Assembly (NCBI GenBank): GCA_011033025.1
Contig: WFMF01000562.1
Location: forward strand, 39,488-103,487
Length of the DNA: 64,000 nucleotides
Direction: 5' to 3'
From: Beroe forskalii
Lineage: Eukaryota; Ctenophora; Nuda; Beroida; Beroidae
Shown here: one piece after another, positions 22,160 through 53,019 of the stretch
Layout of the letters: each line of letters opens with the position of its first letter
How positions within the stretch are numbered: position 1 is the first letter of the stretch
The notes under the pieces: model-generated
What the model was told of the DNA's origin: nothing
Database searches by the model: none
What the model saw: only the letters and a program-made list of their open reading frames with translations
Position numbers and translations under genes: made by a program

Positions 22160-22220
22160 CGATGTCACACACACTGACATAACACACTGATTTACTGACA
22201 CACACACTGACACACACGTG
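22160..22220. repeat. CACACTGACA short repeat
   Basis: Several tandem copies of a CACACTGACA-like unit. Confidence 0.6.
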
Positions 22221-23060
22221 TCCTATGAAGCTACTCGCTTGGCTGGACCCCTGGAAGTAAGAGCTAGACGAATATAATGCACAGTTAAAAACTGGAACCA
22301 GAATTATCAGGCGCACTCAATAGTTTTCGGAGTCTTTCAGAATCCCATGATTTACTGAATTTTGTGGCTTCACCCACGGATATATGCACTGCAGGGCTCA
22401 CTAGGGTATACATACATGTCCGTTGACTTATTAAGTAATTACTGGTCGGGGTAGTAAGTTGGTTTAGCTTTACTCTTTCTAAAAGTCTCTCTGTGAAGGT
22501 GTACATACCAGCTGAGTGCGCCGCTACTCCTTCAGAAATACTGCGGATTCCTTTCTTTTCTCACACGGTTTTTTGAAGTCCAAGAACAGAAAATCGATAA
22601 TTGTCCGGAAGAAGAGTATAAATTCTGATAGTGTCAGCATTAATTCACCGGACAAGATATGGGTTCTTTTGTTAAATAAATCACGGTAGATATTGAGCTG
22701 TGTTAAAATATTATGTAGAAATGTTAAAATAATTCCTAGGTTGTCTTTGTATGTAATATGGATAGGTTAGGATATTCTATTGTGATAGCATATTATTTGT
22801 AGGCAAACACACACATGCACCAGTCATATAAACGAAGCCTGAATCGGTTGCGTTTGGTGGTGCATTCCACCGCTTAGAAATTATTCTACCCTACATTCTG
22901 TAGCAAAAACGAGCCGCAAAAACTCATACCGAAACGGCATAGCGGCAAACTGGCACTGCACCTGTTAGGCTGTTAATGGTCGAAGCCATTAACCAACAAG
23001 AAATTATAGGGTCGGGAATAAGACTGTGATGACACCTTTGCCTATTTTCCTCACCCAGGC

Positions 23061-24557: not shown

Positions 24558-27500
24558 GCAAGTAATCCGGAACATTGATCACCAAAAGCTCGCTAATCAC
24601 CCTAATTAGCTCCTTATCCTAATTAGCTCTCATTAGTTAGGGTGCAATGAGTTTCTCCCATTTGGTTGCTGGACTGATGCTGTGTAACGAAAAGATGGCA
24701 TTTTGGAAGTTTGGAAGATGGTATTTTGGAAGTTTCCGCAGAATCATACTGACATCAGCAGCAGCAGCAGCTACTCTGGGTGGAAAATGCTAAATAAATT
24801 CTTACAGCAAACATTCCTGCTTCTCTCTCACACATCTCACCCTGACAGCTGAACTATGTATGATTAACCGGGCGTGACTGCCGACTACTCAACAGATTCT
24901 TAGAATATAATCATGAGATATATAATAATGATGACGGGGATAAGTTGATAATTTGTACGCCGTCGCTATTTCTCCCACAACCTGAGACGATGACCAAGAG
25001 AATATAATTGGTGTTCATTATGTTATTATCGGCTGCGATGTTTCAGAAATCTTGCCTAATGCCTACTTGGGTTTTTCTCCCTTCTATCCATGAGCTGGTG
25101 TCCTTCATAGCTCCATGTAAATATGCAATGTGCGGCATAGTGAGGTATTCCATGACGCAATTAATGAGGCAACGAGTCGTTGCTGTGCTTTAAGTACATC
25201 CCAATTACATGCTGTATTCTATTGTGGCCTATGGGAAGAATGACCTTTAAAACCTGTGCACATACAAAATGCTATAATTGTGAACATCTTGATTCTTGGA
25301 GTCTTTAGTTTTATGTTTTTAATAAATTACAAGAAAAAAGGACTTATTAGTGACAAAGGCAAGGTCACTTTGTTGTAGGGCCACGTTAAAAAGTGCTAAG
25401 ACTGGCCTTATTCTTTTAAAGTTTTGAAAAATAAACGAAGACTTTCGTGACATGCTTTCCTTAGAATTAATTTTTAAAATAACGATAATGCTAGATATGG
25501 CCATATAGCTAGCTACCTTTGAATAAAGTTTAAAGAGGGCTGGGAAAACTTTACTGAATCGAACAATAATAAATTAAGATGCAACATTACTTTCATGAGA
25601 GAGTTTGCGATTCTCTGGGCAGAATGTAGATTCAAGATCAGAAATCATCAATAACAAATACTTCCGCCTACCATATTGGCTCGTTAATTCAACTCCTATC
25701 ACTCAATCTTAGAGTTATGTCTGATATTATATTATGATGTTTTAATAAGGTTTTTAATTGTCTATTTTATGTCAAATTCAGATGTATTTGAGTTATATTT
25801 TGTAATCAATTAGAATGGTACTTTCATTCAGATTTTTTATGATGACCCTATTTCACCCGAACGGGGATAGAAGGGAAATTGTTCCCAACTGTCGAGCGTT
25901 GCTTCATCCCCCATGAATAAGGTACCCTGAGAAAAACCATCTCGACATTTCTCGAAATAATTGGCCATCATCCTCGACCAAAAAATGAATCTAATTACGT
26001 TATATGAGTATATATCTCGACTAAATTTTGACTTTAAATATCGTCTAATTCTGCAAGATTTCGTCGGTCGAGAAGAATATTCAAACCATTTAATTCGATC
26101 TCCCTCTCCTAAGATACATCTCTGTACACATGATCTGGGTAAGACTCACGGCCTGTGTAAACTTATTTCTGAATATACGGGCTGGATTTATTTAGACTAC
26201 ACTGTATATATTATTATATCGCCTGCTGCAGCCCGAGTTAGGAGGGAACTGGGGGATTAATGCTAGACCTGCTTAGACTAATGTCGGAGAAGATAATATG
26301 AGGGTCGGGAAGCTGAGTATGAATTACTTACACCAGAGAGAAATGGGAGAGCTCGCTGCTGCTAGGGTTAATTCTAAGCTTGGTTTTAGACTTTTAGAGT
26401 ATTATTATCATAATTATTTTAAAGCCATACTTTAAGATCATAGGTACTTACATTCAAGTGTATAGCTACGGGATAAGAGGATATTTCTTCAATATTTCTA
26501 GAGAATCAGGACACAGGGCACAGGCAGGATTCGTGATGTTGCCAACTATTCGTGATGTTGCCAACTATTCATCAACTATTCACTAGTCCATTACCGCGCC
26601 ATTGTTTTAATTTGCTATTTCACCTTCCTCGCTGGTTACACCAGCTACACGATCATATATCTTATAAGCAAGTTAAGAGAATAACTGATTCGCAGCATAA
26701 TGATTTAAGATGAGAACACTGATCATATTCAGTGTGGATATGTTACCACCATTGTAAATGGATAAGCACTGTCTAGATATGGAGGAAACGACTGTCTAGT
26801 TGAATCATGAGTAATGTGTCTGGATATCATTAGTATCATTCGTACGTTTCACAAGCCAAGCCCTCAGCTGATCATCTGTTGAGTGAGTATTTGCAGACCA
26901 TTCTGCATCAAAATTCAAACTCCGAATGTCAAATTATTGGAAAACATTTGATTTTTATCCACTATAAAGCATAATATGTAGTTTTGGACATTTTTCGAGA
27001 AGCCCGACCAGCTCTGGTAGTACGTGGAATTATATAATTCCGGTCACTGGTTCCAGACACCCTCAGTGCATAAGAGAGCCCACAATAGCTGAATCAGCCT
27101 GCCCTACTAAAGCCAGGGTGCCCATATAACATCGTTATGGTATTTTTGGAATCGAGCCAGAACCTATTAATTTGTCTACCAGCAAAATGCTGAATTATGC
27201 CAGCAGTTCAAGGTATCTAGATGTTTTCTCCCAATTTAGCTGCATGTACTGGTATCATGATACATATAAAACATGGCCATGTTTAGAGAAGGCTGTTAGC
27301 TGCTATAATTCCCAGCAAACCTCTGGTACTACCACGCACTAATACCCAATTACGGAACGCTAATGGATATGAAGTATTTTGGTTCGTGGTAATTGCGCGA
27401 AGTAAAGAAAGATAAGTAGTCGGGCTATGGTGTGAATTGAGAACTCTTATAGGCTGGGAATGTGTAAATGAAGGGAGAAAATGTGCTAAGGTTGCATGTG

Positions 27501-29324
27501 CTGCATTATATCTTGGGGAATCAAAACAAGGGAGTAATTGATGGCTCGCACTTTGAAGTTTGAACGTCAGAGGTGGAAAAGAGTCGGAACTCGGAAACAC
27601 AGTATCTTTGTGAAGGTGGGTAACTAAATCGTACCATCTTCAAGTGCTTTGATCCACATTTTCCTAATGGTAGATGGTGGGATCATAATATCCATAGAAA
27701 GGAACCAGGTGTTTCTATCGAATACAAAGGCTTTGATCCTTACTACCCAAAGTGACAAAATACCTGTTTTAAAAAGCCTCTAAATTATGAATTGCTGTCT
27801 GGAAACTCAAAAATGCACGCTATTGGTTTTGCGATTTGAACAATCTCCAAAATTAATCCGTTGCAAATAGGTACCTAGATCTGAGGCCTGAGCTGACAAA
27901 GAGCTTCCATTTTTCTGATTTTAAAGATTTCTAGTCTCTTTCGATGTAAATTTTGATCGGATCAAAGGACCAAATATGGGTGTATCATAGCTGTGTAGAA
28001 GAAACATTAATGAAATGATAGAAGATATTATTCGATTGCCAACAATAACCTAATCAAGATTGGGAATACCGGCATTGATCATGCTTCATCCTAGGCTCCA
28101 TCCTACCTTGCAAACAAAAGATCAAACGATAGAAATGATGGAGGTGTTTACCAATCACGAAGTGATCCGACAAAAATAGCAATTTGTCTGGTTTCTATCA
28201 TGGTTTTCGAGGAAATCCCTGCCCTGCCCAAATATGCCTTTATTCTTTTTCCTATCAATTTACTTCTAAAGTTTAAACATGTTTGGTACCCAGATACTCA
28301 CATGCTCTTGTATTGAACACTCGGTACCTACCTACATTCAAACGTCCCATACACATTACACAAGTACATAACTACCTTATTTCAGATATTTAGGTATTTT
28401 GGGCGGCAACACTCTTTACATCCTTTGTATCGACGTATTGGGCACGTTTCAAGTATTTATATTTTGTAAACGGCTAGTTTCACGGCCACGTCTCTTCCAA
28501 GTGAAAGTCAAGCGACTGTAAGACTGAGCCATTGTTTGAGATATCATAGAGAATGAACAACGTGACGACTCATTTCATTAGCTATCCTTGCGGATTGCTG
28601 CATACATTCAAGTAATCGGAGCTTCTGCAGATATTCTGAGCTTGCTACTCGATCCTTAGTGTCGGCAATCGTAATCGATAAACGTGATGGAGGAATAATA
28701 TGCGCGCGCGAAAGACATTTGTTATTTCTGTGTCACAAAATTGGTAACGACTTTGTTTTATTTTGCGCGCGTTGGACGCCCGAAGGTTAATTGCAGCGCA
28801 TAAGATGCATGGTTTAAATTGCACAAGTGAAATTTTATGCTGTTTCACTCCATCCACTAGCCAGAAATCTACTTACTTGTGCAGTACTTTCATATAGGGC
28901 CAAATCGATGGTTGGAGTGAAATAGGTGTACATTAAGGATTGAATCGTTCACTTTGATTTTTGAAGAAATTTGTAAAAAAACAGTGCTTCTGATTTAGAC
29001 ATCGAAAAACTCATCGTATAGTAATCAAAATCAATATTTCTTATCTTACAATTGTAACATTTGCCTCATAATCTGACAAAAATCGTTAAAATGGACATGA
29101 AAAGAAAGGATTAAACCATGTTGATCATCAATTTTCCAAAAATGTGTTCATTATTCATAAAGTTTTGAAACTGAGATTGATCTTCTGTAGAAAATTGTGC
29201 AATGGCGAGAATAGATCATAAATAAGAGGAAACTACTTTGAATCAATACCCGGTTCAACATTTAGCAAGTGATCAAGCTCTATCAATACAAATGCTATGG
29301 AACAAAACTCGAGTCCGCCCCAAG
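24558..29324. other. Intergenic stretch without recognised genes
   Basis: AT-rich. The frames at 25961-26260 and 27283-27600 have no splice support or recognisable domain. A duplicated CGTGATGTTGCCAACTATTC lies at about 26530-26570. Confidence 0.35.
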
Positions 29325-31834
29325 TCACAAATGTAGTGAAACATGTGAAGATCCCTGAACTCTATTCATGGGATGCAGTCCCCTGTAATTCCTGTAGAAC
29401 GTAGAACTCTGCGATGAAACCTCCTCATTTCCCCTCTCACTACTATACCCCTCGGCTCCCGCCTCACTCTGCGCTGCGTGTAGGAGCAGGTCAGGAGGTC
29501 GGTAGGTTTGTCTGATGCTTCGTGTGATGGAACTTTCTGAGGTAGGGGTGATGGAGGGGCTGTTCGGGTGTCCGTTCTTAGGTCGTGAGTCGGGAGGAGA
29601 TCGCCTGGAATCCCTGGGGTTTATGAATATATGAAATAAACTACATCAGAGGATAATCAGGTACATATATGTCGAAAAAGGGATTCAGCAAGCATAGTTT
29701 AATATTAAAACGAAAAAATATTATAAATTTGACATCAAATTTGGAAATTGGCATCAAACTTCGCATGAAACTCACGCTCTATCAGAAGTGAGCAATCCCC
29801 CTGCAGCTGCAGGTGTCTTTATCTTCTGCTTCACATACTCCACATTCCTTAACGCTCCTGACTTCTTCCCCTCCTTCCGGGGCGACTGCAGATCCCTCAG
29901 AGTCTCAGCATTGCTTGCGGAATGGGAATTGCTTGCAGAGTGTGAGTTGCTTGCGGAGTAGTTGCTGCAGCTGTTGCCATGGATACTGGAGCAGGGAAAG
30001 GATATGTCGAGGTGTGGAGGAGTAGAGTTCATGGGTCTCTTTCCCAGTCTCGGAGTTGAGGAGTACACGTAGCTCTGGTTGGGGGGACGAGAGAGGCTGG
30101 CGGGGATGGAGGGGTGGGTCGCTGTTTGGAGGGGTCAGTGGGCAGGGAGGTCAGGTGAGCGGGGGTACGGCTTTTGTCCTGGAAAAAGAGGGAAAATTAG
30201 CTACATTGGTTTTAAATCTTTACATCAATTCATCGACGTGAATTGGTGATGAATCTGAATTTTCAAGTCAATGAAAACTTTGAAAATCTTAATTTTGCCT
30301 TCAAATCATGGATGAATAGTGAATACCTGAATACCGCCGCTTACAAACCTGTGGATCATAAGCGAGATGTAGGTTTACAGTGTTTAAACATTCGTTGTTG
30401 TCAGACAGAGTGCCAGATGATGCTGAACAGGGGTTGGAATTTTAAGACATAATCAAAGCGCAGTTCAGAAGTTTTATAATCAACATCAATTAAAAACTAT
30501 GTATACCAGGTTTAAATTGACGTTAAACGGAACGTACCTTTGGACAGATTCGGGCTTGATCGCTTTGGCTTAGGGGGTGCTGAAAAGAATGCTGTTCAAC
30601 GTTAGTAAACAGTTATTGAATAAGCTGTTAGTTTTAATTGAACATTAATGAGGTCATTCATAGTTCGAGAAGAAGGCAGTGATAGGGAACATTTATGAAA
30701 AACACCACTAAATTTCAGTCTAGTAGTCAACCGTCTAGTGGTCTAATGTCAATAGCACTCACGGGCCCTAGCAAAGAGTTCTTGTAGGAAAGTGTCCATG
30801 GCTGCTCCCGATGTTTCCAGCCTCGTTAACCACCGGCTGCCGCTCACCACTCTCTCCTGTGGGTGGAAGTGTGAGTGAAGTGCCAAGAAATTCCAAGATG
30901 GGTGAGATGGTGGGATGATTATACCCTTTAAACCCTGAGATGAGAAATGGGTCCCATGTGAAAGAACGTAATGTGAAGCTCATATTATCAGATTGAATAC
31001 GAAATTACATCGTGCAAAGTCATGAGGCCACAAATTCTAAATGATCACTCACCAGAATACAAGCTTAGATCAGTTGAAAAAGTGTCGGCTATTTCCGCAA
31101 GAGTTTGTGTGGCCATGGGGTGCCATGTTGTCGGTTACCAAGCAGCGGTGGACTGTTGCTTAGCAACGGAGATGAACCGTACTCTGAACCGTAGTATTGC
31201 ATCGGCTGCATGGAACAAAAGATGAAAATCTGGCATTCTGGCATTTAAAATCAACAGTTTCAAAACATAGATTCAAAACATATGTTGAACATAAAGTTCG
31301 ACAGAAATCGAATATCGATTAAAAAAAGTAAAAAGCAATGAAAACCTTCGGACTGGTGGACTTCGGAGGTTGGTATGGGGGAGGGCTGGCCGTACAACTG
31401 TTGTTAAATCTGAGGGATAGCAGCAAGGATTTAATAGCTTGGCATTGCACATCAATTATACTCCAATTAGGTAATGGCTCATCATGTTTAGCGTTACATG
31501 AAAGGGCCTATTACCTTTGTAATTAGCATTATATCAAGTTCTGAATGCCTCAATGAACACAGGACAGGTAACAAAGGGAGGTTAATAAGTTCGATAATAT
31601 TGCAATCATATGCCCAAATCTGCCGTGGTTTTGGTAGTGGTACTCAGACTGGGCGTTTCCATGGTACTCCCTCTGTGGGTACTGTTCCTCAGGCTGGAGA
31701 TTAGGGCAGGATGTCCATTGGAGGGGGGCTTGGCCTGGTAACCTGCCCTTCTGAGCTAACCAGTCCTCCGTTGCGACCGTCTCGTAGAATTGGGACTCGT
31801 GTTGGTATGGGGCTAGAGTTAGGAATGAGGTTGT
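29325..31834 (-). CDS. 3' exons of the dystrophin-family gene: Ser/Pro/Tyr-rich tail
   Basis: These exons have no known domain. They encode low-complexity sequence, including [43 protein letters not shown] repeats and [15 protein letters not shown], ending SHVSLHL. Splice phases chain without a stop. The strongest boundaries are 30579-30538 (CAG/GTACGT), 30121-29776 (GTGAGT donor) and 29613-29325. At 30858-30763 another frame (containing [12 protein letters not shown], donor GTGAGTGC) also splices in phase into 30579. At about 31113-31040 an ATG in good context opens [20 protein letters not shown], ending at GTGAGT. These could be alternative first exons or a wrong boundary choice on my part. 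Confidence 0.5.
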
Positions 31835-34800
31835 CTTTGAGTGAAAAACCCCAATCAATGATAACAGGGAATGATTTTTTGAAGTTTCGTATGATTCAAG
31901 CCTAGTCTATAATCAAGCCTAGTCTATAATCAAAAAGCTTAGGAAAGTCTTACTTGTGACATCGTAGATTTTGGTTTTTCGTCACTTGGATGCCTGGAAA
32001 ATAAGTTGTAATTATTACCTCTGTATTCTGTAACCTGATATTAACATCTGAATAGATGGTGGGACATGGGTACCAGTTCCAGTCTTCAATTCATAGCGTG
32101 TAACAGAGCACTGGAAGACTTAATCTTTTAATCTTTGCACTCTAATTCATTGATAGGCTGGCAGCTTTGATACCGTCTATGACGACATAGCAAAAGTTGC
32201 ATGAAAACAGAATGCAGTCAATGTCCGGTGCTAAGTGAAGAAGGATGCAAGTGAATCTAAATCGTACAACGTAATTAATTTTGAGTCCAATTATAGCTGA
32301 CAAGCGCGAAATAGAGCCAGATTACACATGTGCGCGTCACGCGCGCCGCGCCGCGCACATGTGTAATCTATGATGATATTTCAAATTTGTACAGAATAAT
32401 TTTATCGCGCGTTCCGCGAAATTTCTGGAATTTGCCAAATTTTGAGTGTAATTCGGAATTGAATTTGAGTGTAATTTGGAATTGGTTTATCTCGGGACAA
32501 CACACGTCAGGAGCAGCTTTTGGTTCCTCAAAATCAAATCAGAATACCTGCTGACACTTTTCACTGATTTCGGCTTCAAATACGTCTTTATAACGGAAGT
32601 AAGATCTTTGATGCTTTCAGATGTTGATCCCTGGATACATTATATTAAGATAAGCATGTTATATACAGGTATTATATTGCCTTCTTACTTTCTTAACTTG
32701 ATTTTACACGTCAACAGACTCTATGTTGGTTTGCATGCAGTAGTAATTCAATTTGAAGACTTTAGTGGAACGGTATATGATTTTATGCATGCTATTTTGG
32801 GCAATATTTAGAGGCAAGGTGTACGATTTTACTTTCATTATGAGTTATTTATTCTCTCCGCAAATTTGAATAATTAAGATATTAGAAAATGGACAATGGA
32901 AATTCATTGAAGTGAATTCATCCCCCGATCTCTACCTTGTTGATGTATTCTTTAAGTGGATGGGTTTGGTCGTGGGTCTTCACAGGCTTTCCGCTAAGAA
33001 AACATTCCTGAAGATATCTCAAGTCAGTAAGTTAGAATTGCAAGTTAGATATTAAGATATTAAATATTAAAATTGATAGAAAAATTAGCATTTTTGATTG
33101 GCGCAGTTGGTTATAGACTAAAATTCCAAATACCTAGGTACATGATAATCGTCGTATTTTGTACGACGTTTAAGCACCAAATGTAGCAGTGAAAGCCATC
33201 ATGATTTGATTCAAATTTCCAAAACTTTAAACTCTGTCAATAGAAAGAACAGATCAAAACACCATAAATACAACCGATTCAACAACAGTAAGCGAATTTA
33301 AGCCGTTAGCCCAAAGTCAATGACAATATTATAGACGAGTTATCGCTTGACAGTAATGTACTCTATGCTTTGGGCGATTATGCCTATTCGATAGATGAAA
33401 TCATCGGATTCTATACAGAGAATTGGAATTAAAATTTCTTAATTTGACAATGGATGATCAAGTCAATAATTTATTCAACTATTTACGCTTGTTCTCAATT
33501 CAAAGTCAAAGATCGGTCGACGCAGCAATAGTGAGTGGTCTATAACTGATGTGACTAATACTTTATCTTAAATTTAGAACTTAAATAACTGTAGTAAAAT
33601 AGAATGATACGTGACTGACGGGCTTGGCAAAGCACATTACGTAATTACTGAATTAATCAATAGGGAAGTTGTTGTCGTGATTTTGACAGCTTAAAATGAT
33701 TGATCACCGTAATCATCATTTATCTCCAGAAGCTTATAAATTTTTTATTACTTTATAAAAATTTTGATATTTTCGCAATTTGAAAAGGAAGTTATTCCAA
33801 AGCACTATTGCTTCGAATCTTAAAATTCAGCCATGACTGAGGTTTCATGTTTGAGCGAACTTGAAAGATCATCCTTTGAAGTTGCAAGACCTCTTTGCAT
33901 CTACGTACCTATCTAATATCTACGTACCTAGTAATTTAGGCAATACCCTAGTAGTAATTTAGCCAATACCCAAATAATAAGAATGCGTTAAAATGTTAAA
34001 AACCTAACATGTAATCCTATAGGACATTCCAGAACGACCAATGCCACTCAGTGGTACAGGATCGTCAGCATTATTCCTACTTTCCTAATAACGTCTATTA
34101 CTGATTACATCGAATACACTACCAGTGCCGTATTGTCTGCCAATGCTCTACTGGGACAGATAATGTAATATAACCTCGAAGTTAATATTACTTCGGAATT
34201 GATATTACCTCGGAATTAATATTACCCAGAAATTAATAATAACTACACTTCTACAACAGGTGAGGACCAGAGAATGCTACCCTACAGTAATTAGATTATA
34301 TTAACACCACCATCCGTATGTATGAACGTGTCTGTATATTATAGAGTGCTCAGAAGTAGCTACCAGAACAATCATGTCTGCCCCTCTTCGTAATATAATA
34401 ATCAATAACCTCTTACTTGTTATAAAATCGTCAATCTGCCCCACAAACTACAATCAGCGAGAGAAAGAGTAGGATGGCGTCAGTAGGATGGGAAGGATCA
34501 GGCAAGAAGTGACTGTAGACAGAACATACACACTACCAATACACACACCTCTCTAACAAGGTCATCACTACAGTATATACCCCACCACCATTCCTAGAGT
34601 TACCATGACAACGTGTTAATTACACACGGCGTATAGACCGTGGGAGGTGGGATGACCGACTGAGAGACCCCCCTCAGTAGTGTTTAACACTTATAATACG
34701 ACGCGTGATGTCGACAGTTTTACATGTTAAACTGTCATAATGACGTCACAAACAAGCGAGTTAAAGTCGAACACAAGGCTATCGAACTTCAAGCTACAAG

Positions 34801-37800
34801 GACAGAGCAATGCATCCATTGGTTCTGATTAATGTGGTCATCATCATCGACAGTTGTAGTAGTAAAGAGCAATACCATTGGAGAGGGAAGTGCCTTACTA
34901 CTTCATTAGCAGTTAAAAGGGCACAACGTATACCATTATATTATTTAATAGTACTATTATTTTACTAATAGCACTATTTCCGCTATTTCCAGTACATTGG
35001 AAGGGGTATGTGCATGCGAATGGGGGTTCAACGGACCATGGCCTGCGTTGCTTTGGCACATGATATACATAGCATGAAAACGAACTAAGCAATATTATAT
35101 ACAGGCTGTGGATATAGCAAGTCATGATTTGGATGAGAAAAGAGCTACGCACACAAAAATAAACCTTTGAGAATGACGTCATTATGATAGTTTAAAACAA
35201 TGAATATATTGCTGAACTCCCTGATTTTACGCAGGCAGCAGCAGGCACGAAGGGTATATATACTCCACCACAAGGAGATGGATTATGATCTGGATAAAAT
35301 GCACACAGTTAGTGTGATCATAGGGCTCTGCGTGGTGGTGGGTTCTAGTCTAAACGATATGATCCCGTGTTAGGTCTGGGAAATAATAGGCGGTGCCATG
35401 GCATCAGATTACCATTGTTAGCCATGATAATGACATCACTCTCAACCATATTCCATTCGGCTGCCGCAAATGTCCGAATGATTCTCAGGAATAGTTGTTC
35501 CTGCTGCACCACAGCTTGATTCAGTTAGAGATATCTGAGTGTATTGGCATATCTCTTTCCCTTTCTCAAATCTCTCTTCAATTCTATGGGTGTGTAAAAG
35601 GTGTGAAGGTGTGCAGGGTGTGTATATTGAAGGCCTGAAGGGAGATAATCATTGAATATCGCTTTATTCTAATCCTCGATCATTGATTAATCACCTTTAT
35701 TATACTACCGTGAATTATCATCTCAAGAATAACTCGCGTCTGCATTGTGTAGAGACTAAAGAGGAGGAATGGTTTATCATTAGTCTCTAAATAAGACGAA
35801 TAGGAAGGTGGAGGTGCCTGGTGTTATTTTATCTTCAGAAATAACTGTGGGAAATTCGGTGTTGCCTTAGTTCCTTCCGAACTCTTTCAGTGATGGAAAA
35901 GCGAGTAATTGAGGATTGGTTCGGAAAGAAACTTCTGGGAAAATTTCCACGATAACATCCAGGAAGCTTAGATTTAACTTTAGAATACGGACATCCAAGG
36001 GTGTGGTAGTTGATTTGTGAATCGTCTGATTTGAAGAGGGAAATCGAGAGAGTAATGTTTTACACTTGAATCACGCGAAAGTAATTACAATCATACTTCT
36101 GAAAATGGAAGGCAATTCATTCGAACCCACATCAGCTATATATTTCATGGCTGATATATTGAACTCTTGACGAATGAGCACATGGAGACAAGTAGAGGTT
36201 TGAATGTTTAAATTTGACCTTTCAATGCTGACCATTGACCAAGCAAGATTTCAGTGCCACTGAGTAGTTCAAGGGTACTGGTTCATGTGATTTTTGACAA
36301 AGGTTTGTTTCAATTTACATCGTAGAAACCAGTCGAATTCTGCAGTATTCAAACCTAATTCTCTACTTCACTCCACCATATGTCATTTGATACGGTTTAT
36401 CTCACTACAGTGAGATTTTAAGAGTACTGCCACAGCAACACCACAATAACAAGGCTGAAGGGTGAATTGTCTAATAAAATACGTGGCCAAAATAACGAAA
36501 ACTATTCGGCAATTGATGGTGATGTCATTATCAGGCTTCAAGACTGTGAACTGCTGAAATCAGTTTACCATGGCGTTTCAGAACAGTAAAAAAAACCTGA
36601 CGAATAGCAAGCAGAATGATGTCATAATCATGGTTAATTATTGTGAACTAATGACATCGTTCTACCAATCCACAATTAACATTTTTACAACTCACCTGAC
36701 AAAGGTGGAGGTTGGGACACTGAAGACACCTGTATCGGAGTCCTAAGATAGGGTAACACCCACACCCGCCACACTTAGCATCGTGCTTCACTCAAATGAG
36801 GGGGAATTAGGGAATAGGGAATAGGGAGTAGGAAATAGGGAATACGGAACAGGGAACAGGGAACAGGGAGTAGGGAACACCCACACCTGCCACACTTAGC
36901 ATCGTACATCACTGTAATGAGGGAGAATTAGGGAATAGGGAATTGAGGAATAGGAAATAGGGAGTAAGGAAATAGGGAACAGGGTAACACCTGCATCCGC
37001 CACACTTAGCATCATGCTTCACTGTTATGAGGGGGAATTAGGGAATAGGGAATTGGGAAGTATGGAATATGGAATTGAGAACAGGGAATAGGTAGAATTG
37101 GATTATGATGAATGGGGTTTATAAGGAGGAGAGAGGAGGAGGGAGTAGGGAAAGGTAAGTAGAGAAGAGGGAATGAGAACATGAAATAGGAAACTGGGAA
37201 CGGGGAAGTATGACACAATCACTTTGTGATTTCATTCAGTAAAATTGAAGAATGAAGATATAAGTGGAAGAACAATGGCTATGGTGGTCTAATATTGCGC
37301 CATTAACTGATTGTCTTGATGATGCGCATTCCTATAAGCTCATGTCAGTGATAGATTTATTTATAAAGCGGAGTTTAAAATCATGCATGTTAAAACTCCA
37401 CATCACGTATCAATCCATTCAGTGCAAAGAATTCAAATTGAAAGTTTTGGAAGGACGTAGCATAACAAGACTCTTCATATCAGATGCTGATGAACATGAG
37501 TAGGCTTTTTCTCTGTTCACAAGTGTATGATTGTTGCGCTATACATGATGCCTCTTGATGCTTTAAGACGACGTATGCTTACAGAAATCAAACAACACTT
37601 TCAAATCGCGAACAAGACGTTTTAGTACAACTGGCTCAAATACGCGTTGATTTCAAAAAATCATGATGATTTTATCAGGAGCCACAACGAATCAGAGCTC
37701 ATTCGAAGGGCAAAACGTGTAGCGGGATATTTAGGCGGCGATTAGGGTTTGCAACCGATATTATCGGCGATAAATTATCGCCGATAAAACGCGAAAAATT

Positions 37801-40800
37801 ATTATCGGTTATCGGCGATAAAATCTGACCGATAATACCGATAATTTAATGGGTAGAATTTATCATCTTTTGAAGAATAGGCATGACCCGACGCCTGCAC
37901 TTTTAAAGCACTTAAAACACTAACATCGCATTTCCACTTCACTTTTCCCTGACACCAATTTACTATGGCACCACTCAACCCTGACACCACTCAAATCTGA
38001 CACCACTTTACCCAGAAACCACCCAGTCCTGACGACAGCTTTCCCTGACATCAATATCTCGCCCTTACACCACTTTACCCTGACACCACAAAACCGCAAA
38101 ACTTGACACTACCTTGCCCGGTAACCGCTTTATCATGGTAGCATTTAACCCTGACATCAGTCAATCCTTATGACACTTCAGTCTTCACCTCGAAACCACT
38201 AAGCCCTGATGGCACGTTTCACTGTAGTACATTTTTCCTGGCAGCCATTTGCCCGGATACCACTATATCCTAACCTAGCTGACCATGACAACACTTTACT
38301 GTGCCATCACTTCACCATGTCAGGCAGTTTTCCTAGACACGAGTTTTCTCTTGCTGCTGGCATTAATTCTTAACCTGACACTACTTTGCCATGACACCAT
38401 TTTGTTCTGACACAACTCAACACTGGGATCACTTCACAGTTACACTTACTCTGACACCACAAGCTATTTACACTGACACCACTTAACCCCAAAACCTCTT
38501 CACCCCCAAACCAGGATATGACTCAGGCTCCAATTTACCCTGACAGAACTTTAACTTTTAAAGCACTTAAAACCCTAACATCGCATTTCCACTTCACTTT
38601 TCCCTGACACCAATTTACTATGGCACCACTCAACCCTGACAACACTCAAATCTGACACCACTTTACCCAGAAACCACCCAGTCCTGACGACAGCTTTCCC
38701 TGACATCAATATCTCGCCCTTACACCACTTTACCCTGACACCACAAAACCGCAAAACTTGACACTACCTTGCCCGGTAACCGCTTTATCATGGTAGCATT
38801 TAACCCTGACATCAGTCAATCCTTATGACACTTCAGTCTTCACCTCGAAACCACTAAGCCCTGATGGCACGTTTCACTGTAGTACATTTTTCCTGGCAGC
38901 CATTTGCCCGGACACCACTATATCCTAACCTAGCTGATCATGACAACAGTTTACTCTGCCATCACTTCACCATGTCAGGCAGTTTTTCTAGACACGAGTT
39001 TTCTCTTGCTGCTGGCATTAATTCTTAACCTGACACTACTTTGCCATGACACCATTCTGTTCTGACACAACTTAACACTGGGACCACTTCACAGTTACAC
39101 TTACTCTGACACCACAAGCTATTTACACTGACACCACTTAACCCCAAAACCTCTTCACCCCCAAACCAGGATATGACTCAGGCTCCAATTTACCCTGACA
39201 GAACTTTAACACCAGTCTAACCCTGCCACCATTTCACCCTGATACTACGTAACCCTGGCACTATTGTGCCCTGATACTTCATCACTATTTGACTCTGACA
39301 CCACTTCATCATGACACCAGTTTACCCTGACACTAATTTAACCTGAAACCAATTTAGCCTGATACCATTTCACCCTGACACCTAACCCTGTCACGATTTT
39401 ACCAAGACACCACTTTACATTGCAGGGACCATTCAATTCCATTACAACGCATTACCTCGACACCACGTCACACTGACACCATTTTTACCTGACTTCACCC
39501 CAGTGACTAAAGTTTTCATTTCGACTTATGCCTAATGCCCTGGAATTAGAAGCGCATTTTGATTAATTTCGGGTTAAAATCGACGAATTCCTTGGTTGAA
39601 CTTTTCAGGCGATCAGGCTCTTTATTGCTAATAGTAAAAAGCTTAGGGAGACCACCCTAATTACTAGATCGCAGAACATAGATCTGATAGAACGATAGAT
39701 CGGCTTCGTAATCGTAGCTCGACAGGCTGATAGAACGATAGATCGGCTTCGTAATCGTAGCTCGACAGGCTGTAGAACATTGATCGTATCTCAGTAGTTC
39801 GTCATTTCACTAAACCCTGGCATCTCCTAACCAATACACAATTTAACCCTGACACCACTTTCATTTGACACCACTTTAATACCCTGACAACGCATTATTA
39901 ACTCGACACCACTTTACACCGACACCATTTTGCCCTGACAACACTTCATTACTTCATAATGTACTCTTAAACCTTTCAAATAAAAAGTAAATGGCGTCAG
40001 GGTAAATAATATAATGCCGACACGTAAGTTAGTAGTTTAGCCGTACACCTCACTACACTTGCTGATCAATTCATCGAAAATTGTGTCAATGACTACGGCC
40101 AAAAGTAGGTTAACATTTTATCGGCGATAATTATCGGTATCGGCGATAATTATGAAAAATTATCGGTTATCGGCGATAAAAATTTTTGAACCGATAATGC
40201 AAACCCTAGCGGCGATAAGGAAAAATTACAGCCCATCGTGAATTTTTATGATTTTTAGCTGGTATGCACTAAATGTTGGATTGATGTCGGATATGACCCG
40301 GGCAGAATCATAAAATCACCAATTATTGCAGGTCATTTATTTACTCATCTATTTCGTTTGTACGCATTATTCACACGTTAAAATCATGATTAACAGTTTA
40401 TTGCAAACAATGAATGTAAAAAAGGAAGTGTAAGAATATATGCCAGCCGCTTACAACATATTCTCAACATTCTAAAGAACAACTAACAACCTAACAAGCG
40501 ACTTTTCCGTGGAATCTGGTGAATGATTATGTTTCATATTCATCATATTTTACATGTTTTTACGTCTCCATATGCCCGCTATCTGCTACCGATACCGTTC
40601 CTAGATACAGACACAACGCGATACGAGGAAGTATATTTAATAAGAGCAGCTGATACCGACCGAACGCTCGAAAAAACAAAATGTTTGGTTTTTTAGACAC
40701 GATGACTTCTTTTTTCCTTTCCCCTTTTCCTAATTATGCGTAGCAAAACAACTGGAATCATGAGTTGTAATATTTTTGAGGGATTTCAGCATTCCTGCAG

Positions 40801-43800
40801 AAAAATAACCGTATGGATGATGGTATAACCACAGCAACGATTTCAACAAGATATATAATATTTAGAGTACTCCAAAGGTTTTTACTTTTTTATAATGAAC
40901 TTCAATAGTTTTACGTAATCGATTTTGAAAAACCCAACCATTTGGAAGGATTCCCAAATGTGCATGTTTTAAAATCATTCCTGCAGCATTATTCATAAGT
41001 AAACAGTTAACTCACGTCATAACCCACATAGTGATTCATAGGAAATATTCGGTTATATTTAGATATTTGTTCTACTAAAGAACTAGAGTGGCAGTGTTTC
41101 GTGAATCTAACATGATATGAATGCTTCATATTCAGGGTCTGTGCGATACTCCGATGCTGCCAATTGATGATGAATACCCCATTCAACTCCCTTACCATGC
41201 ACCAAGTCACATTGTCACAAAATATGCCGCTGGAATATTTACGCTGTGATCTACAGCTTCGCGCGATGATTAAACGAGCTCTTATATTATACGGTTGGGG
41301 AGCGTGAAGCGTAAATTGGGAACATTACTGCCACCAATTAGCAGATGATGATTCAGCGTATTAGATGTCTCAGGCTAAATCCATCCCTCGCCTTTCTTCC
41401 TTCTTCTTCTCTTCTCCCCTCCTCTCAGCTGTAGACACATGACAAACCCGTAGGTTGGCAAACTTCCAAGGCAAAACCAGGAAGACGGTCAAGGTAAATG
41501 GCTGAGAATTTTCGATATCAACTCAGATAAAAGGGTAGTATTTCTAAAATGGTATAATTTAACAATTCATCAGTAATTTATCAGCTTGGATATTTCTTCA
41601 ATAAGATCGTAGCTATTTCATATTATTTCATAAGTTTTATTTCTGACCAACGTTAATTTTCAAGAGAATTCCTGTTTTCATCATAACCCTTAAAATATTT
41701 CAGAGAAGCATTGAGATAAGAGTCTTAGCCAGTTTCCCAGGTAGAGCTCAAAGAGCAGATTGTAAGATAAGCTTATGATGCTATGCTGGATCTCTCAAAT
41801 TATCACTGAACTATGCAATGATACGATTACATATTATGATTACATATGATTGATCACATCCTCATCCTATGTTCCGACAATTCTGCTGCAGCTTCTGGAT
41901 AAAGTACGCTTCAGTAAGTACAGTTGCCGTCCAATGGCTGATTCCTTGGTCGATGGTCACGAATTCCTCTGTTCACAGGATCTTACCAATTTACTGCCTG
42001 ATCTGCCAATACAGCACACACAGTGCACACTGTAGTGGATTCATGAGTTCATTATATAAAGACAGAGGGAGATAGATCTGCTGTTTGCTTGTTCAGGCAA
42101 GAAAATTACTATCAAATTGAGCTATATATAACAATTACTGTATGTATGGCTGTGCGTGTAGGTGATCACACTGATGGATGCTTTCCTCCCATTAGCGCAT
42201 TCACAAGTGATTTGCTAGATTTGTAGTCATGCACATTCAGCAGCAGTCAGAACGTGTTATGAACAGATTACAGCTTGTCTGTGTGTTTGTGTGTTTGTCA
42301 GTGTGTCAGTGTTTGTGTGTTTGTGTCTCTGCGTATTGCCACTGAGAGTCTATCTATGAATGAAATAGAGGAATAGCCATTAGAGACCGTGTATGCGTGT
42401 ATGTTTAATTATAAGATCTTAAGATATTATAAACAAACTCAGTTTCCATTTGTCAGAACTTGTGCCTCTTAATAAAACGCAGACAATTCATTGTCAGCTA
42501 TGAGTTACGTCAGTATCAGCGCTCAGAATGTCGAGTTGATGACGTCAGCATGTCTACTGCGTACAAGATGTAGAAAACATGGCTCATATCTTTAGGAGCT
42601 CACTTAAAAGCAAACAATAGTCCGCAAATTAGCAAACCAATGGAGGCTCGAGGTTCCAGCATTTCTTCCTTCTTTCCTTTAGACTTTTAGAGGAATTGTT
42701 CATCCACTTAGAAAATGGATGACTTCATCAGTAAGTTGACATTTACTCATTTATAAGATTCGAACGTCTCTGATATCTAGCCTAACACTGGTCTAGACTT
42801 CTAAAAGGCAACGTATTTTTCAACTAAAGAGGTACGCATTTGAAATCTGTTTGGATCTGTATACGATTCATAAAAAGCATACCTAAAAATAAATCTCCTG
42901 AGAATATCAAACACATCATGCAAGACAAATTTAACACGAACATGCATGTTGACCAATACAAATATACACAAACATATAAAATTTACACTCAATAACATGG
43001 TGGGTTTTCCTCTTTTGATATTGGAAGATTACACAAGAACACTTGCAGTGCTTGCACAGTGAACGCCGCCCTTAAATTCAAGGTACCAAGTGAACATTTA
43101 AACTTGAGGACAAAAGTATTAATTACATGCACAATACAAAACGTGCCAAAACAGCGATACTCATACAAAAGTAAGAATAACACAACATTACTGACTGGTT
43201 TGGCTGATGTTAAGGCGGTACAAGGTAGGAACCCAAGAAAGGTACTCTGGATCAGACTGGATCCACTTCAAGTACTGCTCCAGAGTCAGACCGCGGTGTG
43301 GAGACAGATCATGGAAACCGTAGCAACAATGTGCAACATTCTGTGAGGTCGAACCCCCTGAAATGAACGGAGTTATACGGGATATGGGAATGAGAACTCG
43401 AGCTACAGAGGGAGTCCGGAATGGAACTCAAGCCAAGAACGACATTGATTTATGAAGCCTGCTTTTTGACTTAAGCCTGTTTCAGAAAAGAGCCCCTGTT
43501 AGCCTGTTGGATAGTGGGTGTAAATGAGTAAATGAGAGTTATAATTTCTGTTATACGGAAATTAGTAAAACAGAGGATAATAAAACAGAAGAGCACATTG
43601 AGCCGACCTATAAGGTTGTTTTCTCCGCAGGACATGATTAGGTAAGAGGATAGGTGGAGGAGGTGAGATAGCTGCTGAAACGATAGCTCCTTCCCAGACA
43701 ACCTCGCCATCTCGAACAGCACTGAAATTAATAAACTTTAAAACAACAATTACAATCAAATTTGAAGATATCAATACAGTGGTTTCCTAGGAGCATGGAC

Positions 43801-45409
43801 TGCTCAAAATATTTCCCGCCTCCCATTGCATTCGTCTGTAATTTTCATTAACTGTGTTTTATTTTGATAATTCGGTTTCACTTATATCTTCCTCAATATG
43901 CTTTAAGTTGACGTATATGATTTTATCGTGTAATTGATGAGTTTAAATTATTTATGGTACAGAAGACACACCCCACATTGATTGTTTCATTTATTGTATC
44001 AACTGCATTAAGCGCAGTGCAGTTATACAATTATCATATTAAATCATCAATTCTTTCCATTCACAAGTTCAAATAATGTTTAAAACTGTGTTCTATTAGT
44101 GGGATGCGTGCTTTAGCACAAACAAGTAAACATAATACATTTAAACAAGTCATTTTCTTGTCATGCATGTGCGATACGAAAGTTAGCAAAGCATTGGTCA
44201 GTTAAATTATATTCGATTGGTAGAAAATTTCAGTTTAGTTAATGTGAAGCGACTTAAAAGTTGTTCAGCAACATTTTTCCTGAAAACTGTAATCAATGGT
44301 CAGTATGAATCTTGGTAAAATGAAGTTTTTATAGTCAATGATAGATGATAGATTTTGACAGAAATACTGACTAACTGGCAGCTTGCCTAGCATTAAACGG
44401 CATTAGTACTTGGATATGTAAGTAGAGTCAGAAGGAATGGAAGTTAAAGACTTATTGAGTGTACTCATAAGTAAGAAAATCCTTGACAATGCAGGTCACA
44501 CAGATACACATAGATTGATTGTACTCACTCCTGTGCTTGGAGAGAGTATCTGAGTTGGAGAGGAGAATGATAGGTATGTGAAGTTGGAGGGATGTTAGGG
44601 AAGTGTGGGGATACAGAATGGATAGGTAGGAGAGGATTAAACGAGCGGTTTCATCTTGGTTCACCGGGTTTCCAGCCTCCTGCAAATCAAAGTAATTGGT
44701 TGCATGAAACTGCATAGGTAAATTATAAATACTAAATAACTTGATTGCTTTGGATATAAGTTGATCAGATAATTCTCACAGAATGAACTCTTCAGTCTTC
44801 CTGGGTTGCAGGTAGGTAAGAAATTATCAAAAGCTGACTTCACAATTTATGAAATAGCAAATAAATATTAGTCCCCCCTCTAACTATCTGAAGAGTGGGG
44901 ATATCTAACCTGTGAGACAGCTTGAAGAAGTGAAGTTATCACAGAGCTAATTTCTGCTGGCTGCAACACCAAGTTAGGATTTTCTAGACAGTGTTCTTCA
45001 ATGATGGCCATCCACATATCAACAGTCACATGACACACTGCAAATAAAATGCCATATGATCATGGTCTTATTTTTAGTCAAACATCAATCATCTTGCTGC
45101 TACAACAAAACTCCTTAACTCACAAATTACAGTTCAATGATTTAAACTTTTAAAGATGATATTAATTTAAAAAGAAAGAACGATTTTTGAAGCAAAAAAC
45201 TCACACTTTGTTTTCTTCTGTATGAACCGGAGTTTCATTGATAATCTGTATATTCCATAAGGGATGCTGTTGAAGTCTGCTAAACTTCCAAGCATTTGTT
45301 GCAGAAGATCAGGCATTAATAGCACCATACTCAAATTTGATTGAACAGCATTGAAATGTGACATAATGGGCTCAAAAACACAAAAAATTGTGGATTTTGG
45401 TCCATTCAT
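29325..45409 (-). CDS. Dystrophin-superfamily protein, dystrotelin-like (EF-hand region, ZZ zinc finger, Ser/Pro-rich tail)
   Basis: Minus-strand exons chain in phase: 45409-45205, 45037-44910, 44679-44529, 43721-43608, 43357-43196, 36790-36696, 33007-32936, 32630-32548, 31993-31954, 31834-31778, 31205-31139, 30934-30848, 30579-30538, 30121-29776 and 29613-29325 (stop). The product is about 645 residues. [20 protein letters not shown] matches the dystrophin/dystrobrevin EF-hand 1 entry (SLADLNN...YRTAMKLR). The two EF-hand-like domains follow. [20 protein letters not shown] leads into WVPTLYRL, the equivalent of FLDWM..EPQSMVWLPVLHR. Next come a ZZ finger and a short ZZ-following domain, then a Ser/Pro-rich tail. 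No WW domain or spectrin repeats were found, so it resembles dystrotelin. Family members act as scaffolds binding dystroglycan-type complexes. The start may be the ATG at 45409 or 45364. The exons from 31834 to 30848 are the least certain. Confidence 0.82.
32320..32370. repeat. GC-rich hairpin with AGATTACACATGTGCGCG arms
   Basis: GATTACACATGTGCGCG and CGCGCACATGTGTAATC face each other across a short CG-rich loop. The structure lies in an intron of the dystrophin-family gene and is probably a miniature element. Confidence 0.65.
33008..36695. other. Intron of the dystrophin-family gene
   Basis: The sequence between the ZZ exon and the ECFLSG exon. It contains several copies of the TGATAATGACGTCA-type motif (about 34738, 35174, 35425, 36523, 36628). 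No further exon is evident. Confidence 0.6.
36696..36790 (-). CDS. ZZ zinc-finger exon of the dystrophin-family gene
   Basis: This 95-nt exon encodes [20 protein letters not shown] followed by [11 protein letters not shown]. Spacing of Cys and of the LRYRC motif equals the ZZ finger of dystrophin, dystrobrevin and dystrotelin. Phase 1 entry gives MKHDAKC. The downstream exon 33007-32936 opens [20 protein letters not shown], completing the last Cys pair and the His pair of the ZZ fold. The acceptor is TTTGAG rather than CAG, while a nearby duplicated copy has a CAG acceptor. The donor is GTGAGT. Confidence 0.9.
36751..37200. repeat. Local triplication of a splice acceptor and ZZ exon 5' end, plus GGGAATAG repeats
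   Basis: A block starting at 36751, 36873 and 36982 contains GCCACACTTAGCATCGT and then TGAGGGGGAATTAGGG. The first copy is the genuine acceptor plus 5' part of the ZZ exon on the minus strand. The other two are partial copies. GGGAATAGGGAATAGGGAG-type repeats fill the spaces. Confidence 0.85.
37900..39209. repeat. 655-bp tandem duplication inside the hAT-like element
   Basis: 37900-38554 and 38555-39209 are near-identical, differing at a few bases (for example GGATACC versus GGACACC). Each begins CTTTTAAAGCACTTAAAA and ends with GACAGAACTTTAA. Confidence 0.92.
37930..39960. repeat. Degenerate TGACACCACTTTACCC minisatellite
   Basis: Loose units of 15-20 bp with CTGACACCACTTTACC cores in the same orientation as the 7-kb array. 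It continues beyond the 655-bp duplication. A separate 54-bp exact duplication (GATAGAACGATAGATCGG) sits at about 39687-39771. Confidence 0.85.
40217..42980. other. Intron remainder upstream of the ZZ exon
   Basis: Intron sequence of the dystrophin-family gene, with GTGTTTGTGTGTTTG simple sequence at about 42280-42330. A minus-strand frame at 43070-42987 ([11 protein letters not shown]) mimics a ZZ start but is superseded by the better ZZ exon at 36.7 kb. Confidence 0.5.
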
Positions 45410-46412
45410 AAATGTGAACTAATATTATGCAAACAGGGACCATGTTAGGGCTATGTAGTTTAAACCCTACACACTGCAGTGCAATTCATAACAATTTATC
45501 ATGGTCTAGTCTTGTAGATCAATGTGCCTTAAAGGATTTATTCTGGATTCTTTTAAACATGGTCTAGTGAAGCATGATAATCTATTATGGTGCATTAGAA
45601 GAGCATATTCTACTGCATAAAGCCCCAAAATAATTCTATTGGATTTAATAAATTAACGTTGTCCCAGCACTCAAAATAAATGCACATATGAGTGCAGAAT
45701 ATACCATGAATATAATGTGAGTGCAGAATATAAGGTGAATATACTTAAGTAGATACTAACAATTGCACATAAGAGCAATTATTGACCAGCCATCTGCCCA
45801 CTGTATGAGCATGTGTGATCTAAAACAGTTTTTCCTGAAAGAAAAATGGTATAATCTTCAAAAAAACTCTTATTATCCCTCCTTATTATCCCTCTTTAAA
45901 TATCCTTTTGATGTGTTATAGGGTGGTGAAATGGGAGAATATTATACAAAATGGGCAAAGTTGTGAAAATTGAACTGCCCATAAAATTTGGATAAGTGAG
46001 CTTTTGATTAACTTTTTTTACAAAGTGTATTACCTAAATTTGACTACAAATATGGCTGTTTTACTTCTACAATAAGAAGAAGGTCACTATTTTTTTTCAA
46101 GAAAATAAGATAATGGGTTAGAGAGCAAGTTAAAACGTTTAAATGATACGATAAACTTTAAATCAGGAGCTTTCGAAAATCATGTGATTATCGTCGTCAG
46201 CTGAAGATGGAAGGTGAGAGGATGCTTATAAATGAAATGAGTGGTGTCAGGGAGTGGGGGAAGGGTGGAGGGTGTGAGTGATCAGGTGACGGGATAATCA
46301 AATACATGGGAAATGCATTTAGAAATCGTTTAAAAGAAAAGTTTAAAATCCTAACCATCTTGACTAGATCAAGATTGTAAATGATTGGAAAAGGGATTTG
46401 CAGTTGTCACAG
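45410..46412. other. Region 5' of the dystrophin-family gene
   Basis: About 1 kb between the first recognised exon and the palindromic element. It may hold the promoter or an intron if upstream exons exist. No WW-domain exon was seen. Confidence 0.4.
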
Positions 46413-47596
46413 TACGGTGTACCAGAAGGATAAGTTATTGTACCTTTTTTTAAAAATAGAAATAACTTATCCTTCTGTTACAATATCCCAAAGGATAAGT
46501 TATTTTTATTTTGAAAGAAAAATAACTTATCCTCTGTTACAGTGTGTCCCAAAGGATAAGTTATTTTTATTTTTGAAAGAAAAATAACTTATCCTTCTTA
46601 CAGTGTGTCCCAAAGGATAAGTTATTTTTTATTTTTGAAAGAAAAAATAACTTATCCTATTTACAGTGTGTCCCAAGGATAAGTTATTTTTATTTTTGAA
46701 AGAAAAATAACTTATCCTTCTGGGACACGAGTGTGTCCCAGAAGGATAAGTTATTTTTAATTTTGAAAGAAAAATAACTTATCCTTCTGGGACACGAGTG
46801 TGTCCCAGAAGGATAAGTTATTTTTAATTTTGAAAAAGAAAAATAATTTATCCTTCTGGGACACGAGTGTGTCCCAGAAGGATAAGTTATTTCTATTCTA
46901 CAATGTAGGCGTGTGTACTGTGTATGCACACATCTTTCTTTGGGGAAGCATGAAGCTGCACTGCGCAGGCGAGTCTGGCAGAAGTGTCATGCACGGTGGC
47001 ACACTTGTCAGGCGTTGCCTGACCCCCTTGCTTAACACATATATCCCTGTCTGGCTCGCATGTGCACACACCTATGCAGGCTTAGGAACTGACCCCTACT
47101 TGCAGAGTTGTGATCCTGAGCCGCACAGGATGCACACCGCGCAAGCCAGACAGGGATATACATGTTTAGCAAGGGGGTCAGGCAACGCCTGACAAGTGTG
47201 CCACCGTGCATGACACTTCTGCCAGACTTGCCTGCGCAGTGCAGCTTCATGCTTCCCCAAAGAAAGATGTGTGCATACACAGTACACACACCTACATTGT
47301 AAAATAAAAATAACTTATCCTTCTGGGACACACTTGTGTCCCAGAAGGATAAGTTATTTTTCTTTTTCAAAATTAAAAATAACTTATCCTTCTGGGACAC
47401 TCGTCCCAGAAGGATAAGTATTTTCTTTCAAAATAAAAATAACTTATCCTTTTGGGACACTCACCAGGATAAGTTATTTTTTCTTTTCAAAAATAAAAAA
47501 TAACTTATCCTTTTGGGACACACTCGTGTACCAGAAGGATAAGTTATTTCTATTTTTAAAAAAAGGTACAATAACTTATCCTTCTGGTACACCGTA
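46413..47596. mobile_element. 1184-bp palindromic element with 5-bp target duplication (copy 1)
   Basis: TACGGTGTACCAGAAGGATA at the left end is mirrored at the right end. The flanks are an exact 5-bp duplication CACAG (46408-46412 and 47597-47601). Each arm is a series of alternating inverted AAGGATAAGTTATTTTT units. The inner arms (ACAATGTAGGCGTGTGTAC and on) also pair. A central unique part of about 50 bp starts near TATGCAGGCTTAGG. There is no transposase. Five-bp GC-rich duplications and an NACGGTG start recall Transib/RAG-type ends (CACWGTG), without proof. Confidence 0.88.
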
Positions 47597-48681
47597 CACA
47601 GTACTCAGAATATATGGTAAATAACTTTCCTGAAGGTAAAAACTGCTTAAGCTTCAGCACCACAACTGTAAATTGCCATTTTGACGAAGTTGCCATTGAC
47701 TGATCAGTAAGCAAAACCATATTTATTTTATTTCATTTTATCTTTAATGTGATCCTTCATGATATCAAGTGAATGAGATATAGTAAGGGTACGACTGTAA
47801 CCCCCTGTGAACTAAATAGTTAAGTAGGTCTGAGAACGTTTTTCGGTAGTTCATAGTCCATAGATTCACCAGAAAAAAACTCCCCGGATTCCGAGTTGGG
47901 GAAACCCTTTTTGGACCCCTTTTTTCTCCCGAATTGGGGCACAAACTTCAACCGGCAATATCTCAGCTTCTGATTGAGATACAGGCCATATCGTTATACC
48001 AAACTATGCAGGATGAGCACATCATAGGCGACGAAGCATAGTTTCAAAGTCGTAACCCCTTTAGTTTTGGAGTTATGGACGAAAAACCTCTTTTTAGCCC
48101 TACGTGTAACCCCAAAATTGCCCCTTTTTGATAAATAGAATCTGAAGGACCTAGAGAACTCAACGAAGACGCTACCCCATGCAGAATCATCACATTATGG
48201 GGGGTAGAACATGGTTTCAAAGTGCTAACCCCCTTCGTTTAAGAGTTATGGACGAAAAACCCCTTTTGAGCCCTACGGGTAGCCCCAAAATTGCCCCTAG
48301 TCAATAAATAGAATCTGAAGGACCTAGAGAACTCAACAAGGACACTACCCTATGCAGAATCATCACATTTTGGGGGGTAGAGCATGGTTTCAAAGTCCTA
48401 ACCCCTTCCGTTTAAGAGTTATGGACAAAAAACCCTTATTAGCCCTATGCGTAACCCCAAAATTGCCCCCATTTCAAAGATAAAATCTGAAGGTCGTAGA
48501 GACCTGAATGAGGACCCTATCTTATGCAGAATCATCACATTATGGGGGTAGAACATGGTTTCAAAGTCCTAACCCCTTTCGTTTTTGAGTTATGGACGTA
48601 AAAACCTCTTTCAACTCCTCAACTCCAAAATTTTTAATCCAAAATGGAATAGAGCTTGGTTATGTAAGATAGGGATAAAAA

Positions 48682-52992: not shown

Positions 52993-53019
52993 TCCACTCA
53001 ACTCGACTCGAATCCGCTT

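Follow-up and report, generated by a model that had tools for sequence, protein, structure and literature searches.

A window of 64,000 bases (bases 39488-103487 of the contig called C650 in our analysis, whose right end is window position 64000) carries on its minus strand what is most probably an intact, intron-rich coding gene of the dystrophin superfamily, a reading to which we assign a probability of roughly 0.75. The gene would encode a short cytoplasmic adaptor composed of two degenerate EF-hand modules, a complete ZZ finger and a probably disordered Ser/Pro-rich tail, and no WW domain or spectrin repeat was found with it; it is presumably transcribed. Membership of the superfamily, which the original prediction had proposed from the letters of the window, is strongly supported at the sequence level by a Protein Data Bank (PDB) match to dystrophin of 2e-39, by Pfam, by a protein-to-DNA alignment and by three of eight intron sites.

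No single reading frame reveals the gene, and the question was therefore whether short minus-strand exons truly chain. Joined by hand, nine core exons run in phase from 45409 (or 45328) to 31954 and give 350 or 323 codons; all of their internal borders are GT-AG, and there is no stop codon and no frameshift. Both start candidates are in-frame ATGs, and judged by sequence the more favourable context is that of 45328. We then searched the spliced product with Pfam profiles, as the original prediction had proposed, and with phmmer against PDB sequences. EF-hand_2 (E-value 1e-16, 61.6 bits), EF-hand_3 (1.2e-10, 42.0 bits) and ZZ (1.3e-10, 41.3 bits) were all found above their cut-offs of 27, 21.7 and 21.4 bits, respectively, in the predicted order, which is that of the family. 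The best PDB matches lie within the dystrophin family, dystrophin first (2e-39, residues 37-339) and dystrobrevin second (3e-26); for the other 11 distinct sequences among the 17 PDB matches listed, the ZZ finger alone aligns.

Because the hand-picked exons had been chosen with the family already known, we wrote a splice-aware protein-to-DNA aligner and ran it with dystrophin alone as the query. The aligner recovered eight of the nine exons (45283 to 32568) with every internal border identical to that of the hand model; exon 9 was not reached. The alignment score was 328.1. Shuffling the dystrophin query six times gave 112.5-145.0 on this DNA, and real dystrophin scored 89.4-141.0 on seven other 15-kb strands of the window, such that the in-phase chaining of short minus-strand exons is confirmed against a total control range of 89.4-145.0 (n=13). 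With dystrobrevin as the query the score was 261.5; exons 1, 2, 6 and 7 were recovered and the middle exons were misplaced, so that dystrophin is the better query for locating the gene.

We also compared intron positions with those of human dystrophin, using exon ends from what we take to be the public exon table and residue numbers from the chain numbering of 1eg3, which with its presumed start makes the first Leu residue 3095. Three of the eight internal introns fall at human sites in the same phase, namely 64/65, 66/67 and 69/70 of this presumed table. In the gene, the first two interrupt codons 42 and 135, both in phase 1, and the third follows codon 282 in phase 0. The human sites 63/64, 65/66, 67/68 and 68/69 have no counterpart in the gene model.

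Two exons, 36790-36696 and 33007-32936, together encode a complete ZZ finger: three pairs of the form Cys-x2-Cys are present, as is the His pair that closes it. The second half was located by scanning for acceptors that precede x-Cys; of the nine candidates listed, 33007 fits. Candidates at 36022, at 35647 and near 32000 were rejected by eye, since none has an in-phase Cys/His pattern. For the EF-hands, we saw no canonical calcium loop, and in the alignment the second loop lacks three residues relative to dystrophin; hence calcium binding by these EF-hands is unlikely, as far as the sequence can tell.

Two repeat structures accompany the ZZ exons. The first approximately 14 codons of ZZ exon 6, together with the acceptor, occur in three tandem copies (starts 37021, 36911 and 36790; repeated segment 36802-37101, minus strand) separated by a CCCTATT-type minisatellite, and the acceptors of the truncated copies score 3.2 and 4.3. 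The intron between the EF-hand and ZZ exons contains a block at ~37735-40210 bounded by imperfectly inverted ends of the TTATCGGCGATAA type. A GTGTCAGGGT-type minisatellite fills this block, which also includes a direct duplication of ~655 bases and looks like a non-autonomous mobile element.

Downstream of the core, we applied an ab initio parser that combines codon log-odds with simple splice-site scores, trained on 1,873 codons from eight stop-free slices (of 10) of fetched loci and from the core of the present gene. Parsing 31953-27000 gave seven tail exons ending at 29325 with a score of 88.8, which tops all 24 window tiles of equal length; the best tile (67.3) overlaps the tail. The full model, nine core and seven tail exons, comprises 16 exons and 720 codons from ATG 45328 (Table 1), rather than the fifteen exons and about 645 codons first proposed. 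The predicted tail of 397 amino acids contains 15.6% Ser and 10.6% Pro. The Ser/Pro-rich composition and the stop at 29325 thus agree with the original prediction, whereas the exon borders are uncertain; we consider it probable that a Ser/Pro-rich tail reaching 29325 is part of the gene, its parsed form being a model. A codon model trained with 61 stops in 2,883 codons was discarded; it gave partly different tail exons, without exon 11, and the same end. No clear coiled coil was detected in the parsed tail by a crude heptad count; the longest Pro-free stretch is 40 amino acids, and in one stretch of 28 amino acids six of eight heptad positions are hydrophobic. No further Pfam family was found on the minus strand of 28001-36500 and 20001-29000, nor in three hand-joined tail pieces.

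Table 1. Exons of the gene model, in window coordinates, all on the minus strand
Exon	Position	Assignment and content	Evidence
1	45205..45409	In-frame ATGs at 45409 and 45328; start of EF-hand_2; ends in phase 1	Splice border, Pfam, aligner (45283-45205)
2	44910..45037	EF-hand_2 continued (LCHVTVDMW...AVSQ)	Hand model, Pfam, aligner
3	44529..44679	End of EF-hand_2 (EAGNPVNQ...LSKHR)	Hand model, Pfam, aligner
4	43608..43721	Start of EF-hand_3 (...ENNLI)	Hand model, Pfam, aligner
5	43196..43357	End of EF-hand_3, with WVPTLYRL	Hand model, Pfam, aligner
6	36696..36790	ZZ finger, first part	Hand model, Pfam, aligner
7	32936..33007	ZZ finger, second part	Acceptor-plus-motif scan, then hand model, Pfam, aligner
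8	32548..32630	Post-ZZ segment; dystrophin post-ZZ match weak alone	Hand model, aligner to 32568
9	31954..31993	Post-ZZ segment; in phase, GT-AG	Hand model only
10	31650..31834	Probable tail exon	Ab initio parse
11	31346..31409	Possible tail exon, weak	Ab initio parse
12	30763..30934	Probable tail exon	Ab initio parse
13	30538..30579	Possible tail exon, weak; another frame scores slightly higher	Ab initio parse
14	30327..30422	Possible tail exon, weak	Ab initio parse
15	29776..30121	Probable tail exon, Ser-rich; 18-bp in-frame tandem repeat	Ab initio parse
16	29325..29613	Probable last exon, with stop	Ab initio parse

Upstream of the core, a Pfam search of the three minus-strand frames of 46001-64000 at E 0.5 found no WW domain and no spectrin repeat, the only match being a low-complexity repeat match to Pentapeptide_4. 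A control scan of 36501-45500 showed EF-hand_2, EF-hand_3 and ZZ, each just below its curated cut-off, indicating a search that works and is not strong. A loose WW motif scan of 45200-64000 gave 10 matches, seven of them in satellite-like repeats and none WW-like by eye, and among upstream donors preceded by a WW-like end there was one unconvincing candidate, at 45705; an intron-split WW could escape these scans. The predicted absence of WW and spectrin domains has support only up to the contig end at 64000.

Several results weigh against an intact gene with this start and this tail. An AG lies precisely at the human 63/64 site (window 45279), with an acceptor score of -1.6, below that of every acceptor in the model; reading through 45279 from ATG 45328 may have created a new N-terminus from a former intron, as judged from the sequence. 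The acceptor of ZZ exon 6 is weak (-0.9), with two stronger decoy copies upstream. In the tail, the last exon has a codon score of its own of -20.8, and eight of 60 equal-length tiles (24 in the window and 36 in nine fetched loci, both strands) outscore the parsed tail; all eight are from the fetched loci, part of which had contributed codons to the training set. The training base was 1,873 codons, and on 45500-31000 the parser found core exons 3 to 7 and missed exons 1, 2, 8 and 9; it is therefore not sensitive. Finally, 45501-46000 was covered by the motif scan alone, and since the contig stops at 64000, exons far upstream are possible.

We next consider the branch of the superfamily to which the gene belongs. 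The original prediction favoured dystrotelin; for human dystrotelin (DYTN) we used in all comparisons a presumed sequence that we take to be correct. Over the EF-ZZ region, identity is 29.4% to dystrophin, 28.9% to the presumed dystrotelin and 26.8% to dystrobrevin, and the corresponding BLASTP scores are 143, 119 and 100 bits. By segment, EF-hand_3 favours dystrophin (96, versus 83 for the presumed dystrotelin and 63 for dystrobrevin), the ZZ finger slightly prefers the presumed dystrotelin (144, versus 135 for dystrophin and 132 for dystrobrevin), and EF-hand_2 gives no decision (dystrophin 101, presumed dystrotelin 90, dystrobrevin 102). In maximum-likelihood quartets, the approximately unbiased (AU) test gave p values of 0.565 for placement with dystrotelin (one presumed sequence), 0.527 with dystrobrevin and 0.152 with dystrophin, and no placement was rejected; the phylogeny that the original prediction had called for was run and did not separate the placements. 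Given near-equal identities, bit scores in favour of dystrophin, unrejected quartet placements and no evident coiled coils, the dystrotelin assignment is possible by sequence and unproven. By architecture, our first choice is a short, WW-less, dystrotelin-like member, with a trimmed dystrophin next, and we hold this choice at about even odds.

Comparison with the described systems gives likenesses on each side. The gene resembles DYTN in that no WW domain or spectrin repeat was found within the contig, in a protein start near the EF-hands, in the 28.9% identity to the presumed sequence, and in a ZZ finger that scores highest against DYTN of the three. It differs in parsed length (720 amino acids, with an uncertain tail, versus 640-670 for dystrotelin), in a parsed tail that shows no clear coiled coils, and in a post-ZZ stretch without a DYTN match. 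From the cysteine-rich region of dystrophin (the Dp71-like part), which it resembles in its best PDB match, in three intron sites with their phase and in an alignable post-ZZ stretch, the gene differs in the WW domain and spectrin repeats, neither of which was found within the contig, and in its C-terminus. It shares with dystrobrevin an EF-EF-ZZ core without WW and an EF-hand_2 score like that of dystrophin (102 versus 101); however, dystrobrevin is the weakest of the three in EF-hand_3 and overall, and no coiled-coil part was seen in the predicted tail. In excerpts of the 2007 survey that named dystrotelin, two C-terminal coiled coils are reported for dystrotelins, and short WW-less members of the superfamily are described as dystrotelin in vertebrates, to which genes of ascidians and insects (DAH) may correspond (PMC1790709). 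Insect DAH is grouped here with DYTN as one known system, and our sequence comparison was with DYTN only.

The alternative that survives best overlaps with the preferred reading and concerns the branch: the gene could be the lineage's dystrophin proper, with the WW and spectrin parts lost or with their exons past the contig end. We regard this as unlikely, though a serious candidate. Dystrophin is the best PDB match by 43 bits and the closest in EF-hand_3, and the contig stops at 64000. The short post-ZZ stretch also fits dystrophin rather than dystrotelin, if weakly: none of 300 shuffles aligned as well to dystrophin, as compared with 143 of 300 for the presumed dystrotelin and 197 of 300 for dystrobrevin (for which the reference has only ~17 residues), and the intron after the ZZ finger lies at human 69/70. 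This match is modest, however. When the exon search was repeated over 145 candidate exons, six of 200 shuffled queries performed equally well, and among the 3,490 acceptors in the window three others tie with that of the post-ZZ exon. Moreover, no WW or spectrin was found by Pfam in 46001-64000 or by motifs from 45200 onward, even though the longest core intron is 6.4 kb, and among the three quartets the AU p value is lowest for placement with dystrophin. Three exon-wise domain searches of the genome gave no full dystrophin at another locus, which favours this alternative; however, such searches can miss split exons and did miss a ZZ finger at the second superfamily locus described below.

Those searches, which used the EF-hand_2, EF-hand_3 and ZZ profiles on an assembly of 216 Mb in 1,134 contigs, revealed a second superfamily gene on contig C192 (694000-713999; EF-hand_3 5.1e-20, EF-hand_2 1.8e-17, ZZ 8.9e-5). 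Its best PDB match is dystrobrevin (7.7e-37), followed by dystrophin (9.2e-33), and its ZZ finger has lost several ligands. After the ZZ finger, the C192 product has a helical region that is coiled-coil-like by eye, and the parse includes a long disordered part. Pfam detected no WW domain in this product; the alignment of its N-terminal exon takes in the presumed end of the WW domain of dystrophin, three dystrophin matches beginning at query position 34. The C192 gene shares the human sites 64/65, 66/67 and 68/69 and has a further intron at the 63/64 site (acceptor 3.9, donor 3.4). Judged by its PDB matches and by the trees below, it is a dystrobrevin-like paralogue. Other ZZ-finger genes in the genome resemble by sequence what we take to be p62, ZSWIM2, CBP/p300 and Mind bomb.

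With C192 included, the five-taxon analysis bears on another alternative, which likewise overlaps with the preferred reading: the gene may represent an ancient stem branch outside dystrophin, dystrobrevin and dystrotelin. Identity to all three branches is 27-29%, and the best of the 15 five-taxon trees places the gene outside dystrophin plus the presumed dystrotelin. Eight of the 15 trees remain in the AU confidence set, however, and the best three all pair C192 with dystrobrevin and differ only in the place of the present gene. The best tree leads the dystrotelin tree by a log-likelihood of 0.53 and the dystrophin tree by 1.11, and thus gives no preference for the outside placement; fast evolution would give the same picture. 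We consider a stem branch rather unlikely.

A decaying copy or pseudogene is very unlikely. The genome does contain partial copies of both superfamily genes. In a segment of contig C266 (33000-42999), positions 3325-4113 of that segment hold a copy of the exon 1 region of the present gene with 93% identity over 800 bases. Its coding part has lost single bases at two places, and it is cut off just after the exon, with no following exons in the aligned part; by these marks it is a pseudogene fragment. A diverged partial copy of the first C192 exons lies on contig C847 (419000-428999; 77-88% DNA identity), where only those first exons were found in 10 kb. The minisatellite triplication of the first part of the ZZ exon could also suggest decay. 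By contrast, the nine exons of the gene in the window are open and in phase, and all of its internal splice sites are kept. That the EF-hand exons at 43-45 kb and the ZZ exons at 33-37 kb instead belong to separate genes, divided by the 6.4-kb intron with its repeat-filled insert (the longest intron), is extremely improbable, as the phases fit across that intron, the domains follow the family in order and spacing, and a single dystrophin query spans both halves.

Elsewhere in the window, an exon of a cyclin H gene lies at 3704-4120 on the minus strand (PDB cyclin-H, 4.8e-16), and a long AATCG-type satellite array at 51921-53014, open in several frames, is probably the source of the pentapeptide-repeat matches. 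A search of the window with Rfam at gathering scores gave 0 matches.

Our preferred reading, an intact gene for a short EF-ZZ adaptor, suggests how the protein might act. The EF-ZZ part of dystrophin docks on membrane-protein tails; by analogy, the rigid EF-ZZ block of the present protein would attach to a partner in the cell cortex without a need for calcium, and the Ser/Pro-rich tail may carry short, probably phosphorylated, motifs for other partners. The WW domain is the usual means of binding the PPxY motif of beta-dystroglycan. Without a WW domain, binding to that motif in the usual way would not be expected, and without coiled coils, neither would the usual pairing with dystrobrevin.

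The gene is a further member of an already described type within the superfamily. The 2007 survey presents dystrotelin, dystrophin and dystrobrevin as a trichotomy and describes the invertebrate genes in its comparison figure as intronless (PMC1790709). Because of the latter, an intron-rich invertebrate member, here with several preserved intron sites, is a useful data point on the relations of the branches. If the host is a sponge or a comb jelly, the gene also bears on the timing of the family split, because a review has dystrobrevin appearing only with the cnidarians and reports that comb jellies lack dystrophin (PMC10293626); an earlier survey likewise gives no dystrophin in comb jellies (PMC4582122). 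A decidedly doubtful extension is that the lineage lacks any full-length dystrophin and retains the superfamily as the bare EF-ZZ gene, without WW, spectrin or coiled coil, and the dystrobrevin-like C192 gene, which keeps a remnant of the WW end and the helical region. If that were true, the EF-ZZ block would work alone, being either a remnant or the form in which the family began.

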